The position numbers were made by a program, and so were the translations under genes. The notes under the pieces were generated by a model. The model was not told the DNA's origin and searched no databases. It saw nothing but the letters and a program-made list of their open reading frames with translations. From positions 62,001 to 126,000 of the forward strand of contig CALJAM010000029.1 of assembly GCA_938027685.1 (NCBI GenBank): DNA of 64,000 nt. The letters run 5' to 3'. This DNA is from an uncultured Bryobacteraceae bacterium. Its GTDB lineage: Bacteria > Acidobacteriota > Terriglobia > Bryobacterales > Bryobacteraceae. Shown piece after piece: positions 48,125-60,664 of the stretch. Each line of letters begins with the position of its first letter. Position 1 is the first letter of the stretch.

Positions 48125-49315
48125 ATGATGCCTCGGCCTACGCGTCGCGATTTCGTAATCGCCGGCGCCGCCCTCATCGGCGAGCGCGCCGCCCCCCGCC
48201 CGGTTCGCCTGGGAATCGTAGGCGGCCGATTCGGCGCCACGTTCCAGTGGCATCTGCACCCGCACGCCCGTGTGACCGCCGTCTGCGACATCGATCCCAA
48301 AGGTCTGGAACGTCTTGCCCAGGTCTATCGCTGCGACAACCGCTACCGCAGCTTCCGGGAACTGCTGCGTCATCCTGAACTGGACGCCGTCGGCATCTTC
48401 ACCCCGGCGCCTACGCACGCCTGGATGGCGGTGGAAGCCATGAAAGCCGGCAAACACGTCATCAGCGCCGTACCCGCCGGCATGACCATCGAAGAGCTCG
48501 AGCGGCTCATCGATACGGTCAGGCGCACCGGCTTGCGTTACATGATGGCCGAAACCAGTTACTATCGTCCGGAAATCATTACCTGCCGCGAATGGTCGCG
48601 ACAGGGACTGTTCGGCACGATCTTCTATAGCGAATCCGAGTATCACCACGAAGGGCTGCTTTCGCTGATGTACGACGATCGCGGCCTTCCGACCTGGCGG
48701 CACGGCTATCCGCCGATGCTCTACCCGACGCACTGCACGGGGATGATCATCCCGGTCACGGGGGAGCGTCTGGTCGAAGTGCAGGCCGTGGGTTGGGGCG
48801 ACGGGCACGAGATCTTGCAGACGAATCAGTACAAGAACCCTTTCTGGAACACGACCGGTTTTTTCAAGACATCGCGCGGCCACTGCTGCCGCATCTCCGT
48901 GTGCTGGCACCTTGCGGCGGGCGGTACGGAACGGGCCTCCTTTTACGGCGATCGCCTTTCTTACATCATGGCGCGACCGGAGGGTTCGCCCAATACCATC
49001 GTGCGGATCGCCAAAGAGGGCCGCACGGTGCTCGATGCGGAGGGCTACCCGCAAGGCTCGCTCTCCATCGAGGCATACAAGCAGCCCAACCACCATGAGA
49101 AACTGCCTGAAGCGCTGCGTGTGCCAACAGGCCATGGCGGCTCCCACGCTTTCATCACCCACGAGTTCGTGCAGGCCATTCTTGAAGGCCGCCACCCTGA
49201 GGTGAACGCGTGGGAAGCGGCGGCGTATACTGTGCCGGGGATCGTCGCGCACCAATCGGCGCTGCGCGGCGGCGAGCCGCTGAAGATACCGGATTTCGGC
49301 GTCGCGCCGGCCTGA
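48125..49315 (+). CDS. Gfo/Idh/MocA-family oxidoreductase with Tat-like N-terminus
   Basis: 396 residues. 'RPTRRDFVIAGAALIG' is a twin-arginine-type leader. The nucleotide-binding domain starts at 'VRLGIVGGRFGATF' (about 28-40), followed by 'VTAVCDIDPKGLERLA' and 'LDAVGIFTPAPTHAWMAVEAMKAGKHV'. The usual EKP motif after GKHV is absent: it reads SAVPAGM (114-120), so the conserved Lys is missing. The C-terminal half is the sheet domain that binds the sugar. It may act on glycans outside the cytoplasm, with a tightly bound cofactor, or be a binding protein. It precedes GH127 by 45 bp. Confidence 0.82.
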   Translation: MMPRPTRRDFVIAGAALIGERAAPRPVRLGIVGGRFGATFQWHLHPHARVTAVCDIDPKGLERLAQVYRCDNRYRSFRELLRHPELDAVGIFTPAPTHAWMAVEAMKAGKHVISAVPAGMTIEELERLIDTVRRTGLRYMMAETSYYRPEIITCREWSRQGLFGTIFYSESEYHHEGLLSLMYDDRGLPTWRHGYPPMLYPTHCTGMIIPVTGERLVEVQAVGWGDGHEILQTNQYKNPFWNTTGFFKTSRGHCCRISVCWHLAAGGTERASFYGDRLSYIMARPEGSPNTIVRIAKEGRTVLDAEGYPQGSLSIEAYKQPNHHEKLPEALRVPTGHGGSHAFITHEFVQAILEGRHPEVNAWEAAAYTVPGIVAHQSALRGGEPLKIPDFGVAPA

Positions 49316-49360
49316 GGCGGCAAGCGGCGGCACAAAGACTCCCGCAAAAGGAGCAGTCCC

Positions 49361-51325
49361 ATGTCGATGACGCGTCGTGAGTTTCTGAGCGTTGCGGGTC
49401 CCGGGTTGACCGCGCGCGGGCCAGAGGCGGCGGACTGGCGCGCACAGGGCATTCTCCACCTGGAGCATTCGCCCCATGCGCGGCTGAAGAACGTCCCCGT
49501 GCGCGCCGTGGCGTTGCACGAGGGCTTCTGGACCGCGCGCCGCAAGGCCAACTTCGAGCGCAGCATTCCCACGCTGCTGCAATTGCTCGAAGAACACGGC
49601 GTGGTGGACAACTTCCGGCGCCTCAGCGGACGCAAGAACGTCCCTCGCCGCGGACCGCTCTACACGGACTCCGACCTTTATAAATGGATGGAAGCGGTGG
49701 CCTTTGTTCTCCAGTCCGGGGAGGATCCCGGCTTGCGCGCGACCTTCGAACGGCTCACCGACGAGATCCTTGCTGCTCAAGAGGAGTCCGGTTACCTGAA
49801 CACTTACTATGTCGAGGAACGCAGAGCCCTACGGTTTCAGGAAATGCACCGGGGCCACGAACTTTATTGTCTCGGCCACTTACTCCAGGCCGCCATTGCC
49901 TATTACCGGGCGACAGGGGATACCCGCCTGCTTGACGGCGGCATTAAGTTCGTGAACTACCTTGCGGAAAACTTCGGTCCCACGCGCCGCCCGCTGTTGG
50001 CCGGACACCCGTGTCTGGAAATGGCCCTTGTCGAACTTTACCGCATCACACGCGAGCGACAACACCTGGATCTGGCCGGTTACCTGCTCGAGGGGGACGG
50101 CGAGCGTCTGAAGCTCACCCGGCAGCAGTCGATCTATTTGTTCAGCGGCAAGCCCTTCACCTCGCGCACGCGGCTCGAAGGCCACGCCGTCCGCGCCATG
50201 TACGCCTGCTGCGGCGCAACCGACTATTACATGGAGACAGGCCGATCCGACTACGCGGCCACACTCGAGCGGCTCTGGCAGGATCTGGCGCGCGGCAAGG
50301 TTTACATCACGGGCGGCGTGGGCTCGCGCGCGCAGGGGGAGGCCTTCGGCGACCCTTACGAGTTGCCCAACCGGCTTGCCTACACGGAAAGCTGCGCCGC
50401 CATCGGCAACATGATGTGGAACTGGCGTCTGCTGGCCGCCCGCGGGGAGGCTCGCTTCGCCGATATGCTCGAGCGCGCCCTCTACAACGGCGTCAATTCG
50501 GGCATGTCGCTCTCGGGTGATCTCTACTGCTACCGCAATCCACTCGAGCTGAGCGGCGATCCTGACGACCGCATCCGCAATCCCTGGTACGATACCACTT
50601 GCTGCCCGCCCAACCTTCAGCGCATCCTGGCATCGCTGCCCGGTTACTTTTACAGCACGAGCGCCGAAGGCCTGTGGGTTCACCTTTATCACGGCGGAAC
50701 GCTGGAGTGGCGCTTGCGCGGCGAGGTGCGGGTGCAAATCGTTCAGAGGACCCGCTACCCATGGGAAGGGCGAATCGAGCTGGAAATGCGCCCGGAACGT
50801 CCCGCGGAGTTCACCCTCGCGCTGCGGGTTCCGGCTTGGGCTTCGGGCGCCCGACTTTGGGTGAACGGCGAAGCTCGCGCCGCCCCTGCGGGACAGTACG
50901 CGGTGGTGCGCAGGCTCTGGCAGCCGCGCGATCGTGTCGTGCTCGATCTACCCCTTGAGGTACGGCTTACCGCGGCCAATCCCATGGTCGCCGAGAACTG
51001 GGGCAAGGCGGCCGTCGAACGCGGACCTCTGGTCTATTGCATCGAGCAACTGGACCATCCCGACGTTTCGATATTCGACCTGCTGCTCGATCCCGACGCC
51101 GGTTTTCAGGAAGAGTTCCGGGCCGACATGCTCGGCGGCATCGTGATGCTCCGCCACAAGGGGCGCGCTTGGCGCAGCTCGCCCACGGCCGAGCCTCTTT
51201 ACACGCGCTGGCCCCCGCCGGCACGGGCTACGCGAACCGCAGAGATTACGCTCATCCCCTATTACACGTTCCACAACCGCGGCATCACCGCGATGAGGGT
51301 TTGGATGCCGCCGGCGGGGGCCTGA
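49361..51325 (+). CDS. GH127 family glycosidase (beta-L-arabinofuranosidase-type), Tat-exported
   Basis: 654 residues. MSMTRREFLSVAG is a Tat-type signal and an AAAAGGAG ribosome site precedes ATG 49361. The (alpha/alpha)6 barrel carries the GH127 zinc/catalytic set: Glu327 (SRAQGEAFG), Glu343 and Cys345 (YTESCAAIGN), and Cys414/Cys415 (DTTCCPPNLQ). These correspond to the zinc-bound Cys nucleophile site of HypBA1. It should release terminal beta-L-arabinofuranose or a related sugar from plant glycans or glycoproteins. The C-terminal 180 residues are beta-sandwich domains. The Gfo/Idh gene lies immediately upstream. Confidence 0.92.
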   Translation: MSMTRREFLSVAGPGLTARGPEAADWRAQGILHLEHSPHARLKNVPVRAVALHEGFWTARRKANFERSIPTLLQLLEEHGVVDNFRRLSGRKNVPRRGPLYTDSDLYKWMEAVAFVLQSGEDPGLRATFERLTDEILAAQEESGYLNTYYVEERRALRFQEMHRGHELYCLGHLLQAAIAYYRATGDTRLLDGGIKFVNYLAENFGPTRRPLLAGHPCLEMALVELYRITRERQHLDLAGYLLEGDGERLKLTRQQSIYLFSGKPFTSRTRLEGHAVRAMYACCGATDYYMETGRSDYAATLERLWQDLARGKVYITGGVGSRAQGEAFGDPYELPNRLAYTESCAAIGNMMWNWRLLAARGEARFADMLERALYNGVNSGMSLSGDLYCYRNPLELSGDPDDRIRNPWYDTTCCPPNLQRILASLPGYFYSTSAEGLWVHLYHGGTLEWRLRGEVRVQIVQRTRYPWEGRIELEMRPERPAEFTLALRVPAWASGARLWVNGEARAAPAGQYAVVRRLWQPRDRVVLDLPLEVRLTAANPMVAENWGKAAVERGPLVYCIEQLDHPDVSIFDLLLDPDAGFQEEFRADMLGGIVMLRHKGRAWRSSPTAEPLYTRWPPPARATRTAEITLIPYYTFHNRGITAMRVWMPPAGA

Positions 51326-51368: not shown

Positions 51369-51644
51369 GTGCGCGAGCGGCGTCTGATCCGGCTTTACAT
51401 CAGCGGCGCCACTCCCCGATCGGCTGCCGCGGTCGAGGCACTCAAAGCCCTGCTCGACGAGCTGAACGAGGAATGCGAGCTGGAGATCATCGACGTGTAC
51501 CAGCAAGCCGGCCGCGCCGGGCAGGACGACGTTCTGATCACGCCCACGTTGATCGAAAAGTCCCACGGCACTGTCCGTCGGCTGGTCGGCGATCTGGGGG
51601 ACCGGCGCCGCTTGCGCGCAGCCTTGGGGTTGACGGGAAGATGA
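51369..51644 (+). CDS. kaiB: KaiB-like protein
   Basis: 91 residues from GTG 51369. 'IRLYISGATPRSAAAVEALKALL', 'CELEIIDVYQQAGRAGQDDVLITPTLIE' and 'VRRLVGDLGDRRRL' align along the whole length of the KaiB/thioredoxin-like domain, including the TPTL and GDL motifs. In cyanobacteria KaiB switches fold and binds KaiC and the kinase SasA; no kaiC or kaiA is in this window. Its stop overlaps the start of the histidine-kinase gene (ATGA), so the proteins are made together and probably interact. Confidence 0.9.
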   Translation: MRERRLIRLYISGATPRSAAAVEALKALLDELNEECELEIIDVYQQAGRAGQDDVLITPTLIEKSHGTVRRLVGDLGDRRRLRAALGLTGR

Positions 51645-52930
51645 GCGAAGGGCTGCACCGCGAGCTGATGCGGCTCCGCGCGCGCCTGGCTGCGGCCGAG
51701 CAGGCCTTGCAGGCGATACGCGAAGGCAAGGCCGATGCCGTTGTGGCTGGAGGTCCCGGGGGTTGTCGCGTTTTCACGCTTGAGGGCGCCGACCACCCTT
51801 ACCGCGTCTTTTTGGAGCAGATGCAGGAGGGCGCGGCAGCGCTCGATCGTCACGGAGCGATTCTCTACGCGAACCAGCGGCTCGCCGCCATGTTGGCGAC
51901 GCCGCTCGAGAAAGTCATCGGCCGCGATCTCGATAGTTGGGTCCCTGCCGAAGCCCGTCCCATCTTTCGCGAATGGCTGGAGGGCGCCTTGCGCGAGGGG
52001 GCGCGGGCGGAACTCGACCTGGTGGCTGCTGACGGGCGTCGCGTCCCGGTCTGCCTTTCCGGGCGTTCGCCCGGGGCCGGCGTCGCGCCCGCGCTCTGCG
52101 TTGTGATCACGGATCTGAGCGAGCCGCGCCGGCGCGAGCAACAGTTGCGGCGCCAGACCGAGCTGCTGGCCCGAGCGCGTGCCGAGCTGGAACGCCAGGC
52201 GGCGGAGCTGTCTCGCTCCAACGCGGAACTGGAGCAGTTCGCTTCCGTGCTGGCGCACGACTTGCGCGAACCGCTGCGCGCGGTGCTCAACTACGCGCGG
52301 CTGCTGGCGAGCCGCGGTCTCCGGCAATCGGAGGATCGCTCGCAGCGGTACCTTGCCAGGGTGCTGGGCGGCGCGGAGCGGCTCGACCGCATGATCGAGG
52401 GGCTGCTGGAATTCTCGCGCGTCGGCACCCGCGGTCGGCCTCCGCAGCCAACCGATGCGCAGGCCGTCTTCGAACAGGCCTGCTCGGATCTGCGCGAGCT
52501 CATCGAGAGCGCCGGGGCGACCGTGACGCACGAGCCGTTGCCCACGGTGATGGCCGATGAAACGCAACTGTTGCGGCTCATCGAGAATCTGCTTGCCAAC
52601 GCGATCAAGTTCCGCGGTGCTGAGCCGCCACGCGTCCACGTTCGGGCTGAATGGCGCCAGGGTGAGTGGGTGTTCGCGGTGCGGGACAACGGCATCGGGA
52701 TCGACGCGCGCGACTACGATCGCATTTTCGCGCCCTTTCAGCGACTTCACCGGAACGCCGACTATCCGGGCGACGGTCTGGGCCTCGCCGTTGCGCGCCG
52801 CATCGTCGAGCGGCACGGGGGTCGGATCTGGGTGGAATCGCAGCCGGGCAAGGGATCTACGTTCTTTTTCACCATGCCCGCCGTCACGGATCGCGCGCAT
52901 GAGCAGGCCTGCGGCGCGCGGGCGGGCTGA
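51641..52930 (+). CDS. PAS-domain sensor histidine kinase
   Basis: 429 residues from ATG 51641, no membrane segment. Residues 1-50 are a helical cap ('QAIREGKADAVVAGGPGGCRVFTL') common in kinases found near kaiB-like genes. A PAS domain spans about 55-165 and a coiled coil 165-203. HisKA has the phospho-acceptor His206 (LAHDLREPL). The HATPase retains Asn320 (NLLANAIKF), DNGIGI (349-354) and GDGLGLA (377-383), so it should be fully active. It lies between a kaiB-like gene and a receiver-CpaE fusion, suggesting a KaiB-to-kinase-to-receiver chain. Confidence 0.92.
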   Translation: MSEGLHRELMRLRARLAAAEQALQAIREGKADAVVAGGPGGCRVFTLEGADHPYRVFLEQMQEGAAALDRHGAILYANQRLAAMLATPLEKVIGRDLDSWVPAEARPIFREWLEGALREGARAELDLVAADGRRVPVCLSGRSPGAGVAPALCVVITDLSEPRRREQQLRRQTELLARARAELERQAAELSRSNAELEQFASVLAHDLREPLRAVLNYARLLASRGLRQSEDRSQRYLARVLGGAERLDRMIEGLLEFSRVGTRGRPPQPTDAQAVFEQACSDLRELIESAGATVTHEPLPTVMADETQLLRLIENLLANAIKFRGAEPPRVHVRAEWRQGEWVFAVRDNGIGIDARDYDRIFAPFQRLHRNADYPGDGLGLAVARRIVERHGGRIWVESQPGKGSTFFFTMPAVTDRAHEQACGARAG

Positions 52931-52956
52931 AGGCACGAGTCGAGGAGGAATGCAAC

Positions 52957-54105
52957 ATGAGCGCTGAAGCGTCCGGCACGACATCGATCCTGCTGGTGGA
53001 GGACAGCGAGGCCGATGCGGAGTGGGTCTTCGATTGCCTGGAGGAGTCAGGTCGGACGTATCGTATCGAGCACGCTCCGCGGCTGGCCGACGCCGCCGCC
53101 AGGCTCGAAAGCTCCCGGCCCGATGTTATCGTGCTCGACCTGATGCTGCCTGATAGCGCCGGCTGGCAGACGTTCCGGGAGCTTCGCCGTCGCGCTCCGG
53201 ACGCCGCGCTGGTGGTGCTGAGCGGTCTCGGTGACGAAACGCTCGCGCGCAACGCCGTACGCCAGGGGGCGCAAGATTTCCTGGTGAAAGGACGGACGCC
53301 GCCGGAGATTCTGGTCCGCGCGCTCGATTACGCGGTCGAGCGACAGCGCTCCCTGCTGCGTCTGAGGCAGACGACGAATCGCCGCGGCAAGCTGATTGCG
53401 TTCATCGGCGCCAAGGGCGGCGTGGGTGCGACCACCGTCGCTACAAGCGTGGCCGCCGCGCTCGCACGGCGGCTCGATGTGATCATCGCCGAGCTGGAGA
53501 GCCTTGGCTGCGGTCTGGCGGGCGCTTTTCGTATTCGCGCGCAGGCCGGCGCCGCCTGGAGCGCCGATTTCTCCGACCCGGACCAATTGACGCATCAGCT
53601 ATGGAAGCTGCCGTCGGGATTGCGCGTGTTGTTGGGACCTCCCCCGGATCGTGAAGTCACGGCCGCGCAAGCGGAAGCCGTTGTGGACGCCCTGGTGGCC
53701 GCAGCCGATCGTGTCGTCGTGGATCTGGCGCCGCGGGCATCTGCAGCGAACGCCGCCGTGTTACGCCGGGCCGATCGCATCGTGATGGTGCTCGAGCGTG
53801 AGCCCGCTTCGGTGGCGGCAGCTTCTCGCCTGCTCGAGTACCTGCGCGCCGCGTGCCGACTGGAAGGGCTCGTGCACGCTGTTGTGGTCAATCGCGTGGC
53901 CCTGGCGTGCCCGTTGCCCCTCGAGGAGATCGAGCGCCAGTTACAGATACCGGTGCTCGCCGTCATCCCGCCCAACGCGGATCTTTGCGTGCAAGCCCGC
54001 CGCAGCGGGGCGCCGGTGGTGTTCTATCAACCGGAAAGCGCCTTGGGCGGCTGCCTGCTCGAACTGGCCGCAAAACTGGAAGAGGACCACGCGGTCGCAT
54101 CCTGA
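52957..54105 (+). CDS. Response receiver fused to CpaE/TadZ-like (MinD/ParA) ATPase
   Basis: 382 residues with an AGGAGG ribosome site. The N-terminal receiver has phospho-Asp61 (IVLDLMLPD), an acidic pocket (VEDSEAD) and Lys111 (FLVKG). After a linker (about 130-145) comes a deviant Walker A ATPase: GAKGGVGATT (151-160), keeping the signature Lys153 but with Ala in place of the P-loop Lys, as is usual in CpaE. 'VVVDLAPRASAANAAVLRRADRIVMVLE' is the switch II region. CpaE/TadZ proteins position pili or other polar structures; no tad genes are nearby. It is the expected target of the upstream kinase. Confidence 0.9.
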   Translation: MSAEASGTTSILLVEDSEADAEWVFDCLEESGRTYRIEHAPRLADAAARLESSRPDVIVLDLMLPDSAGWQTFRELRRRAPDAALVVLSGLGDETLARNAVRQGAQDFLVKGRTPPEILVRALDYAVERQRSLLRLRQTTNRRGKLIAFIGAKGGVGATTVATSVAAALARRLDVIIAELESLGCGLAGAFRIRAQAGAAWSADFSDPDQLTHQLWKLPSGLRVLLGPPPDREVTAAQAEAVVDALVAAADRVVVDLAPRASAANAAVLRRADRIVMVLEREPASVAAASRLLEYLRAACRLEGLVHAVVVNRVALACPLPLEEIERQLQIPVLAVIPPNADLCVQARRSGAPVVFYQPESALGGCLLELAAKLEEDHAVAS

Positions 54106-57818: not shown

Positions 57819-57928
57819 TCCAGCCTCCACTCCCCTCATGATAGGCGGGACCCGCGCTAGGCTCCGCCGGGGCGGCCCCTGGCAGGCATCCGAGCCGGGT
57901 TATGCTGAAGATCCGACAGAGGTGGCAG

Positions 57929-60664
57929 ATGCGCGCTTGCATCCTTGTTGTGGCCGGATTGGCCGTAGCTCCCGCGAACGCTGTTTCGCTGGTGGAGGGC
58001 TTCCGCAGACCTCCCGAAGAAGCGAAAGTCATGGTCCGATGGTGGTGGTTCGGGCCCGCGGTCAGCAAAGCGGGTCTCGAGCGCGAAATGAAGCTCATGA
58101 AAGAGGGAGGATTCGGGGGGTTCGAGGTCCAGCCAGTCTACCCTCTGACCCTCGATGACCCGGCCCGTGGTCTTGTGAACCTTCGATATCTTTCGCCGGA
58201 ATTTCTCGAGATGGTGCGCTTCACGGCCGAGACCTCGCGCCGTCTGGGCCTGCGCATGGATATGACGCTGGGCAGCGGCTGGCCCTTCGGCGGCCCTCAC
58301 ATCCCCATCGAACTGGCCGCAGGCAGGCTGCGGGTGGATCGCCGCTCGGTCGACGCCTCGACGAACGCTTTAGCGGCAGCCGGAAACTATCGTGCGGAGC
58401 GGCTGGTGGCGGCCTTCCTAGTCCCTCCCACGGGCGACCTCTCGCCCGACCGTCTCACCCTGCTCCCGGTCGTGGATGACGGCACGCCGCGCTTACTGCT
58501 TCCCGCTTCCACCCAGCCGCGCGACGTGCTGCTTTTCTTCGCCAGCCACACCCGGCAGGAAGTCAAGCGTGCGGCCTTCGGGGCCGAGGGACTCGTCCAC
58601 GACCATTACAACCGCGCTGCGCTTGCCGTCCACCTGAAGGAAGTCGGCGAAAAGCTTGTCGAGGCGGGCGGCGGCGCGATCCGCGCGGTGTTTTGCGACA
58701 GCCTGGAGGTCTTCGGCTCGGATTGGACGACGGCCTTGCCCGAATATTTTCGGCGTCGGCGTGGATACGATCTGATCCCTCATCTGCCCGCGCTGCTGAA
58801 GGAGGCAAGACCCGAGGCGGCAGCAGTCCGTCACGACTTCGGCCAGACACTCACCGAGATGTTCGAAGACGAATTCATGGCGCCCTTGGCCGAGTGGTGC
58901 CGCCGGAAGAGAGTGCTGCTGCGCGTGCAGGCTTACGGCATCCCGCCCGCGGGCATGTCCAGTTACCGTTTCGTGGACCTGCCCGAGGGCGAGGGCGCTT
59001 ACTGGAACGTTTTCACCGCGACCCGATGGGCTTCCTCCGCCGCTCACTGGCTGGCCCGACCCGTGACGTACTCGGAAACCTGGACCTGGATCCACTCGCC
59101 CGTTTTCCGGGCGACGCCGCTCGACTTCAAGGCCGAAGCCGATGCACACTTCCTTCAGGGCATCACGCAGCTTGTCGGACACGGCTGGCCGTACTCGCCC
59201 GAAGTGATCGGTAAGCCGGGCTGGCGGTTCTACGCCGCCGGCGTCATGAACGACCACAATCCCTGGTGGCACGTCATGCCGGACCTGAACGCCTATCTCG
59301 CCCGCATTTCCTACCTGCTCCGGCAAGGCGAGCCGGCGGTCGACGTCGCGCTCTACGCTCCCATACACGATGCCTGGGCAAGTTTCCACGTCGGGCGTGT
59401 CTCGCTCTTCCAGGCCGTGGGAGAGCGCCTCGGGCGCACGATCATTCCGCGACTGCTGGAAGCCGGCTACAACTTCGATCTCGTGGATGACCGCGTCATC
59501 ACCACTCTGGCGCGCGTCGAGAAGGGCCGCCTTGCGGTTGCGCGCCACAGCTATCCGATCGTCGTGCTGCCCGGCGTGGAGCGAATGCCCGCTGCCACTC
59601 TGCGCCGTCTGCGGGACTTCGTTCGGGCGGGCGGCATCCTGGTGGCAACGCGCCGTCTGCCTTCGACTGCCCCGGGGCTGGTCAATCGCGAGGAGGAATC
59701 CAAAGAGATCGCCGCCCTGGTGCGCGAGCTCTTCCAGGATGCCAAAGCGTCCGCTCACTTCGTGGCGGACGAGGATGCCGAGCTGGCTCGGACCCTCACC
59801 AAGCTCCGCCGCCCCGACGTGCTCTTCACGCCGTCGTCCCAGGGTATCGGCTTCATTCACCGCAGTGCGCCCGGCGCCGAGATTTATTTCCTCGCGAACA
59901 CCGGCAACCGACGCGTGCAGGTGAAGGCGGAGTTCCGTGTCGCGGGGCGTCGCCCGGAGTGGTGGGACCCCTTCACGGGCGAGGTGCGCGAAGCTGCCGT
60001 CGCCGGCCGCTCGGCGACCGGGACGGGCATAGAGCTCGACCTGGCGCCTTACGAATCGCGCCTCCTCGTCTTTCCGGTCTCGCCCACGCCCGGTGCACAG
60101 CCGTTGGTCAGGCGGCCCACGCCCATTCTGCTGCCGATGGATCTGAGCCACGGCTGGGAGGTCACGTTCGAGGAAACCGGCCGCAAGGTGGTCGTGAACG
60201 AGCTGCGGTCCTGGACGGAAGATCCTGCGACGCGCTACTACTCGGGCCGAGCCGTCTACCGCAAGACCGTCAGCCTGCCGCCCGAATTCCTCATGAAAAA
60301 CGTCCGTCTGAAGCTGGACTTCGGAGAAACCAGGCCACTCGAGCCCAAGCCGGCCCGCGGTTTCCGCGCCTGGGTCGAGGCGCCTGTCCGCGAAGCTGCT
60401 GAAATCTTCGTCAACGGCAAACGCGCCGGAAGCCTGTGGTGTCCGCCCTATGAAATCGATGTGACCGCGCTGCTGCGCCCCGGCGAGAATCGTCTCGAGA
60501 TCGTAGTCTCCAACCTCATGATCAACCGCATGGCGGGTGAACCTCTACCCGACTACAAGGATCTGATCGCGCGCTACGGCGATCGTTTCCAGCCGCAGGA
60601 TCTGGAGAACCTGCAGCCTGTGCCTTCCGGCCTGCTCGGACCCATCCGTCTGGTGCCATACTGA
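57929..60664 (+). CDS. GH106-like glycoside hydrolase (alpha-L-rhamnosidase family), exported
   Basis: About 911 residues from ATG 57929, preferred over ATG 57902 because it gives a clean signal peptide (MRACILVVAGLAVAPANA) and has an AGAGGTGG ribosome site. The start of the mature protein, 'FRRPPEEAKVMVRWWWFGP', and 'MKEGGFGGFEVQPVYP' with 'RLGLRMDMTLGSGWPFGGPHI' are signature blocks of GH106-type enzymes. The C-terminal 150 residues are a GH2-like sugar-binding domain ('DPATRYYSGRAVYRKTVSLP', 'EIFVNGKRAGSLWCPPYEIDVT'). Characterised GH106 enzymes remove L-rhamnose from rhamnogalacturonan. Confidence 0.85.
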   Translation: MRACILVVAGLAVAPANAVSLVEGFRRPPEEAKVMVRWWWFGPAVSKAGLEREMKLMKEGGFGGFEVQPVYPLTLDDPARGLVNLRYLSPEFLEMVRFTAETSRRLGLRMDMTLGSGWPFGGPHIPIELAAGRLRVDRRSVDASTNALAAAGNYRAERLVAAFLVPPTGDLSPDRLTLLPVVDDGTPRLLLPASTQPRDVLLFFASHTRQEVKRAAFGAEGLVHDHYNRAALAVHLKEVGEKLVEAGGGAIRAVFCDSLEVFGSDWTTALPEYFRRRRGYDLIPHLPALLKEARPEAAAVRHDFGQTLTEMFEDEFMAPLAEWCRRKRVLLRVQAYGIPPAGMSSYRFVDLPEGEGAYWNVFTATRWASSAAHWLARPVTYSETWTWIHSPVFRATPLDFKAEADAHFLQGITQLVGHGWPYSPEVIGKPGWRFYAAGVMNDHNPWWHVMPDLNAYLARISYLLRQGEPAVDVALYAPIHDAWASFHVGRVSLFQAVGERLGRTIIPRLLEAGYNFDLVDDRVITTLARVEKGRLAVARHSYPIVVLPGVERMPAATLRRLRDFVRAGGILVATRRLPSTAPGLVNREEESKEIAALVRELFQDAKASAHFVADEDAELARTLTKLRRPDVLFTPSSQGIGFIHRSAPGAEIYFLANTGNRRVQVKAEFRVAGRRPEWWDPFTGEVREAAVAGRSATGTGIELDLAPYESRLLVFPVSPTPGAQPLVRRPTPILLPMDLSHGWEVTFEETGRKVVVNELRSWTEDPATRYYSGRAVYRKTVSLPPEFLMKNVRLKLDFGETRPLEPKPARGFRAWVEAPVREAAEIFVNGKRAGSLWCPPYEIDVTALLRPGENRLEIVVSNLMINRMAGEPLPDYKDLIARYGDRFQPQDLENLQPVPSGLLGPIRLVPY

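Follow-up and report, generated by a model that had tools for sequence, protein, structure and literature searches.

A kaiB-like gene, a gene for a PAS histidine kinase and a gene for a receiver-CpaE/MinD-like protein (REC-CpaE) form a compact locus in a Bryobacteraceae genome (Acidobacteriota; G000, 3.93 Mb, 96.7% complete). We favor, with a probability of roughly 0.55, the reading that this locus is a KaiC-free descendant of a kaiC-kaiB-kinase cluster in which KaiB regulates the kinase directly, as a signaling switch and not as an oscillator. The kaiC-kaiB-kinase system is already known, and what is new here is the KaiC-free version. A literature search covering KaiB without KaiC and CpaE-type receivers with kinases returned nothing on this gene set.

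All three genes lie on the forward strand of the window, the whole 64,000-nt stretch of DNA that was analyzed. The kaiB-like gene (51369 to 51644; GTG start, 91 amino acids) was identified by its Pfam match, by alignments and by Foldseek. Its stop and the kinase start share 4 nt in the sequence ATGA (51641 to 51644, forward strand), and the kinase gene (51641 to 52930; 429 amino acids) is followed after 26 nt by the REC-CpaE gene (52957 to 54105; 382 amino acids), which was assigned from Pfam domains and relatives. The original prediction of a tightly packed three-gene set is therefore confirmed, as is its statement that the locus lacks kaiC, since a GH127 gene lies only 43 nt upstream of kaiB, with no kaiC between them. 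A scan of the locus for promoters and terminators found neither. Carbohydrate genes surround the operon (window positions 48125 to 51325 and 57902 to 60664); they encode a GfoIdh oxidoreductase, the GH127 beta-L-arabinofuranosidase, which is on the same strand as kaiB, and, downstream of the operon, a GH106 alpha-L-rhamnosidase.

The earlier proposal to look for kaiC elsewhere in the genome was followed up with the TIGR02655 profile, and no KaiC was detected in the three genomes of the genus (97, 98, and 81% complete). Two weak PF06745 matches in the window genome were inspected as KaiC candidates and proved to be RecA and the alpha subunit of ATP synthase (AtpA). Among 366 genomes sampled from the phylum Acidobacteriota, 31 contained KaiB above the cut-off, and 28 of these also had a KaiC match at E<1e-60. 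The three without KaiC were the window genome, G464, in which kaiB sits at a contig end, and G406, which has a KaiB fragment with a stop. In the family sample (150 genomes), KaiC was found in 14 of 19 KaiB genomes; a full KaiC was missing from the three genomes of the genus, from G009, where kaiB lies close to the end of a contig, and from G103 (KaiC fragment only). A published survey found that KaiB occurs only alongside full-length KaiC (PMC5520375). The genus lacks both kaiC and one kaiB, at the locus and in the genomes. Since KaiC is gone, the operon is most likely a re-used signaling switch rather than a clock. At two other loci, L049 (3003 to 7306, in G103) and L040 (8094 to 10515, in G028), kaiB is followed by a large kinase gene with no adjoining kaiC, which may mean that kaiB and a kinase became paired away from kaiC on more than one occasion.

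The order kaiB, kinase, REC-CpaE is kept in all three genomes of the genus. At dS near 1 between these genomes, dN/dS was 0.19 to 0.31 for kaiB, 0.15 to 0.17 for the kinase, and 0.10 to 0.17 for REC-CpaE, and all three genes are therefore under purifying selection. The flanking genes for GfoIdh, GH127, and an LTXXQ protein are likewise syntenic across the genus; because the whole region is conserved, a shared gene order is by itself only a weak indication that the three genes act together. Outside the genus, the three-gene order was not seen in the family and phylum samples or in the census of KaiB loci. The arrangement is thus limited to one genus, and the conservation across Acidobacteriota that the original prediction had proposed to check does not exist for the three-gene set.

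The KaiB protein passes the family profile PF07689 with 50 bits (cut-off, 27; match over profile positions 1 to 80 of 82) and fails the circadian-clock equivalog TIGR02654 (52.3 against 145.3 bits). All three KaiBs of the genus retain the cis-proline of the TPTL motif but have neither LPxP proline; of 79 other KaiBs compared, 77 have a proline at one of these two positions and 74 at the other. They also have alanine in place of G88 and glycine in place of D90; the S. elongatus KaiB sequence that served as the reference agrees with the PDB alignment over the compared stretch. One of the three prolines tied to fold switching, which correspond to P58, P65, and P67 of R. sphaeroides KaiB, is therefore kept in the genus. 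In the R. sphaeroides protein, fold switching is limited by the isomerization of these prolines, and 474 of 487 KaiBs conserve the triad (PMC11185700). In the same work, single proline-to-alanine changes removed the thioredoxin-like state, so loss of the prolines could instead lock the ground state. Under either locked-state reading, the residues make slow, proline-driven switching unlikely.

An AlphaFold2 model of the window KaiB, built from an input of two sequences, adopts the thioredoxin-like state, which AlphaFold2 is known to favor for one KaiB (PMC10808063). Foldseek matched the model to 4kun (Legionella KaiB), 5jyt, and 8ubh, a set that includes a fold-switch-stabilized KaiB, and, at lower rank, to the N-terminal domain of SasA (1t4y). 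For the nonswitching KaiBs Lpp1115 of Legionella (4kun) and KaiB-TV-4 of T. elongatus vestitus (8ubh), the thioredoxin-like state was measured (PMC10808063), whereas that of the window KaiB is modeled; a further difference from these two proteins is that the window KaiB retains only one of the three family prolines. From the model, we infer that the window KaiB stays in the thioredoxin-like state. In the KaiB tree, the genus sits on a long branch (1.0). Relatives carry two kaiB genes in tandem, and a tree test of which copy the genus KaiB belongs with rejected neither (AU p of 0.52 with the second copy and 0.33 with the first); a YQQ motif recalls the second copy.

The kinase carries PAS_4 (51812 to 52129; E=6.7e-10), HisKA (52229 to 52426; E=4.1e-13), and HATPase_c (52556 to 52882; E=1.2e-30) domains, all on the forward strand. 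The H, N, G1, F, G2, and G3 boxes are all present, His206 (52256 to 52258) is confirmed, and hydropathy analysis found no hydrophobic segment, indicating a soluble protein. The intact cytoplasmic kinase that had been described from the sequence is borne out. Ahead of the PAS domain, residues 10 to 68 (51668 to 51844, forward strand) form a module of about 58 residues that alignment revealed to be common to kinases encoded directly 3' of kaiB. Its consensus is xxLxxRLxEAEExLxAIRxGEVDAxVVxGxxGxRVYTLxGADxxYRxLVExMxEGAxTL, a Pfam search of the module returned no family at its cut-off, and its C-terminal end probably runs on into the PAS fold.

This N-terminal module follows kaiB closely. A strong match was found in 13 of the 150 family genomes; 12 of these are KaiB genomes in which the gene immediately after kaiB carries the module. 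The exception, G060 (82% complete), encodes a module-bearing kinase at L164 (4482 to 5915) with no adjoining kaiB and none found in the genome. In the phylum sample, 20 of 366 genomes had a strong match and all 20 contained KaiB, with an extra copy of the module away from kaiB in two of them. Co-occurrence by genome was significant by Fisher's test (p=3.6e-12 in the family and p=1.9e-25 in the phylum), a test that ignores relatedness and here uses a profile built from the kaiB-linked kinases themselves. Outside the genus, 27 loci with the best transmitter matches were examined, and the module was found in none of them. In the transmitter tree, it appears on several separate lineages, requiring 10 changes by a quick method, at least 7 of them forced by well-supported branches. 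The pattern is that of a KaiB-linked input module joined to different transmitters, and the module tracks kaiB in at least two phyla, in Acidobacteriota and in alphaproteobacterial plasmid kaiC-kaiB clusters. Coupling between KaiB and the kinase is thus supported at the sequence level by the occurrence of the module almost only beside kaiB.

Comparison with known clusters places the window locus close to a recurrent arrangement. In the census of Acidobacteriota KaiB loci, the standard order was kaiC-kaiB-kaiB-kinase, with kaiC-kaiB-kinase as a variant. These clusters (for example, L041, L047, L053, and L179) share with the window the order of kaiB followed by a kinase with the N-terminal module, but they have kaiC and a second kaiB, and the window locus has neither. 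Rhodopseudomonas palustris has the order kaiC-kaiB-PAS kinase (PMC4794148), and plasmids of Cereibacter sphaeroides KD131 (NC_011962), Pararhizobium, and Rhizobium carry kaiC, one or two kaiB genes, and then a kinase. In R. palustris and C. sphaeroides, the PAS histidine kinase lies directly after kaiB, as in the window, whereas their clusters include kaiC and the window instead has a receiver-CpaE gene after the kinase. The N-terminal part of the C. sphaeroides kinase matches that of the window kinase (36% over residues 17 to 152 of a 160-residue query), although the former is of the HWE type and the latter has a HisKA transmitter. The window locus thus shares with kaiC-kaiB-kinase clusters a module-bearing kinase directly 3' of kaiB and differs from them in having no kaiC in the cluster. 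In three such clusters that were checked (L053, L179, and L185), the downstream regulators are of the LuxR type, and in a fourth the gene after the kinase encodes a receiver-only protein. In the genus, REC-CpaE thus seems to have taken the place of such outputs.

SasA offers a second comparison. Like the window pair, it ties a thioredoxin-like, KaiB-type input to a histidine kinase, and its N-terminal domain resembles the window KaiB model. In SasA, however, the KaiB-like domain is fused to the kinase, whereas the window has separate genes and no KaiB domain in its kinase. SasA is driven by KaiC, which is absent from the window genus.

The third protein combines an N-terminal receiver (52987 to 53313, forward strand; Response_reg E=5.5e-18) with a CpaE/ParA-type ATPase domain (53389 to 54084, forward strand; CbiA/ParA by Pfam). 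In the receiver, D16, D61, S89, and K111 are intact and the position of Asp61, the predicted phospho-acceptor, is confirmed; the predicted fusion of a receiver with a CpaE-type ATPase is therefore upheld. The ATPase domain has the KGGxG signature of the CpaE/ParA/MinD superfamily, with a deviant Walker A, KGGVGATT (53413 to 53436), that is without the P-loop lysine, as in CpaE-type proteins. The protein scored below the cut-off for actinobacterial Ssd (TIGR03815; 79.2 against 154.45 bits), and its predicted structure was too poor for use (pLDDT 59). CpaE/TadZ proteins of Tad pili likewise join a receiver-type N terminus to a ParA/MinD-like ATPase with a deviant Walker A. REC-CpaE differs from them in its intact phospho-acceptor receiver and its location outside a Tad locus, and it falls in a different subgroup from the CpaE encoded at the genome's own Tad locus. 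A role as a Tad pilus protein was considered and rejected, given the intact receiver, the lack of adjoining Tad genes, and the presence of a separate Tad locus in the genome. That Tad-type locus (L165, 9367 to 13857, on contig C8 of G000) encodes a CpaE with a degenerate receiver, a T2SSE ATPase, and two T2SSF proteins.

Members of the non-Tad subgroup to which the window REC-CpaE belongs are common in Bryobacteraceae, in many genomes without kaiB. The window transmitter groups within a radiation of kinases from Bryobacteraceae, and several of these adjoin receiver-CpaE genes. The association is loose: among the 10 best transmitter matches, 2 lie within 2 kb of such a gene, and among the best 70, 8 do. 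These sequence data are only suggestive of a strict evolutionary partnership between the kinase and receiver-CpaE. Tandem receiver-CpaE pairs, sometimes with kinases between or beside them, were seen at L077, L078, L082, L087, and L094; those at L077, L078, L082, and L094 combine one Tad-like and one window-like subgroup member. A CpaE-type gene also neighbors Kai genes at L043 (3913 to 9948, in G069), making this a second such case: kaiC, kaiB, and a kinase with the N-terminal module are immediately preceded there by a CpaE-like gene, whose ATPase domain is very diverged, and by a single receiver.

The favored reading can be laid out as a series of steps. An ancestral cluster of the kaiC-kaiB-kaiB-kinase type would have lost kaiC and one kaiB in the genus. 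The remaining KaiB, in the thioredoxin-like state, would act directly on the kinase, probably at the N-terminal module or the PAS region. After autophosphorylation of the kinase on His206, the phosphate would be transferred to Asp61 in the receiver, altering the dimerization or localization of the ParA/MinD-like domain. The output would then be the positioning or recruiting of proteins, replacing the LuxR-type transcriptional output of some relatives. A positioning output is suggested by the CpaE/MinD-like family of the ATPase. The original prediction was of KaiB-dependent signaling to spatial organization without kaiC nearby, with timing or positioning as possible roles. The signaling part stands as the best reading, given that the N-terminal module occurs almost only beside kaiB, and the spatial part is a possibility raised by the ATPase family; timing is not supported, because KaiC is missing from the three genomes and the residues linked to fold switching are missing from KaiB.

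The main rival holds that KaiB is a left-over of a lost kaiC-kaiB-kaiB cluster and contributes little, the working unit being a two-component pair of kinase and receiver-CpaE. The long branch of the genus KaiB, the slightly faster evolution of kaiB relative to its neighbors, and the occurrence in the family of neighboring kinase and receiver-CpaE genes without kaiB are all in keeping with this account. Nevertheless, none of the three genomes has a disrupted kaiB, the gene runs into the kinase start, and purifying selection on it is clear; the kinase, moreover, has retained its kaiB-linked N-terminal module. The selection and the retained module speak against a mere remnant, and we consider this account doubtful.

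Less probable still is that KaiB serves as a thioredoxin-like adaptor, linking the kinase to REC-CpaE or another protein and not regulating kinase activity. The fold of the model and the CpaE-type neighbor gene would suit such a role, but no sequence feature indicates a second partner, and the association with the N-terminal module points to the kinase. An hourglass timer, in which a fold-switching KaiB would cooperate with some KaiC-like protein from elsewhere in the cell, is very improbable. KaiB is a timer part in KaiC-containing systems (PMC4794148; PMC11185700), but the genus genomes contain no KaiC, the P-loop matches in the window genome are only RecA and AtpA, and KaiB lacks the LPxP prolines, G88, and D90.

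More tentatively than the favored reading of a KaiC-free signaling switch, KaiB might be a KaiC-independent, direct regulator of histidine kinases that docks on the N-terminal module and, in this genus, steers a phosphorylation-controlled positioning protein of the ParA/MinD type. KaiB has outlived KaiC beside its kinase, so a simple test is possible of whether KaiB can act on the kinase without KaiC. The N-terminal module is a likely KaiB contact site in many uncharacterized kaiC-kaiB-kinase clusters of nonphotosynthetic bacteria.
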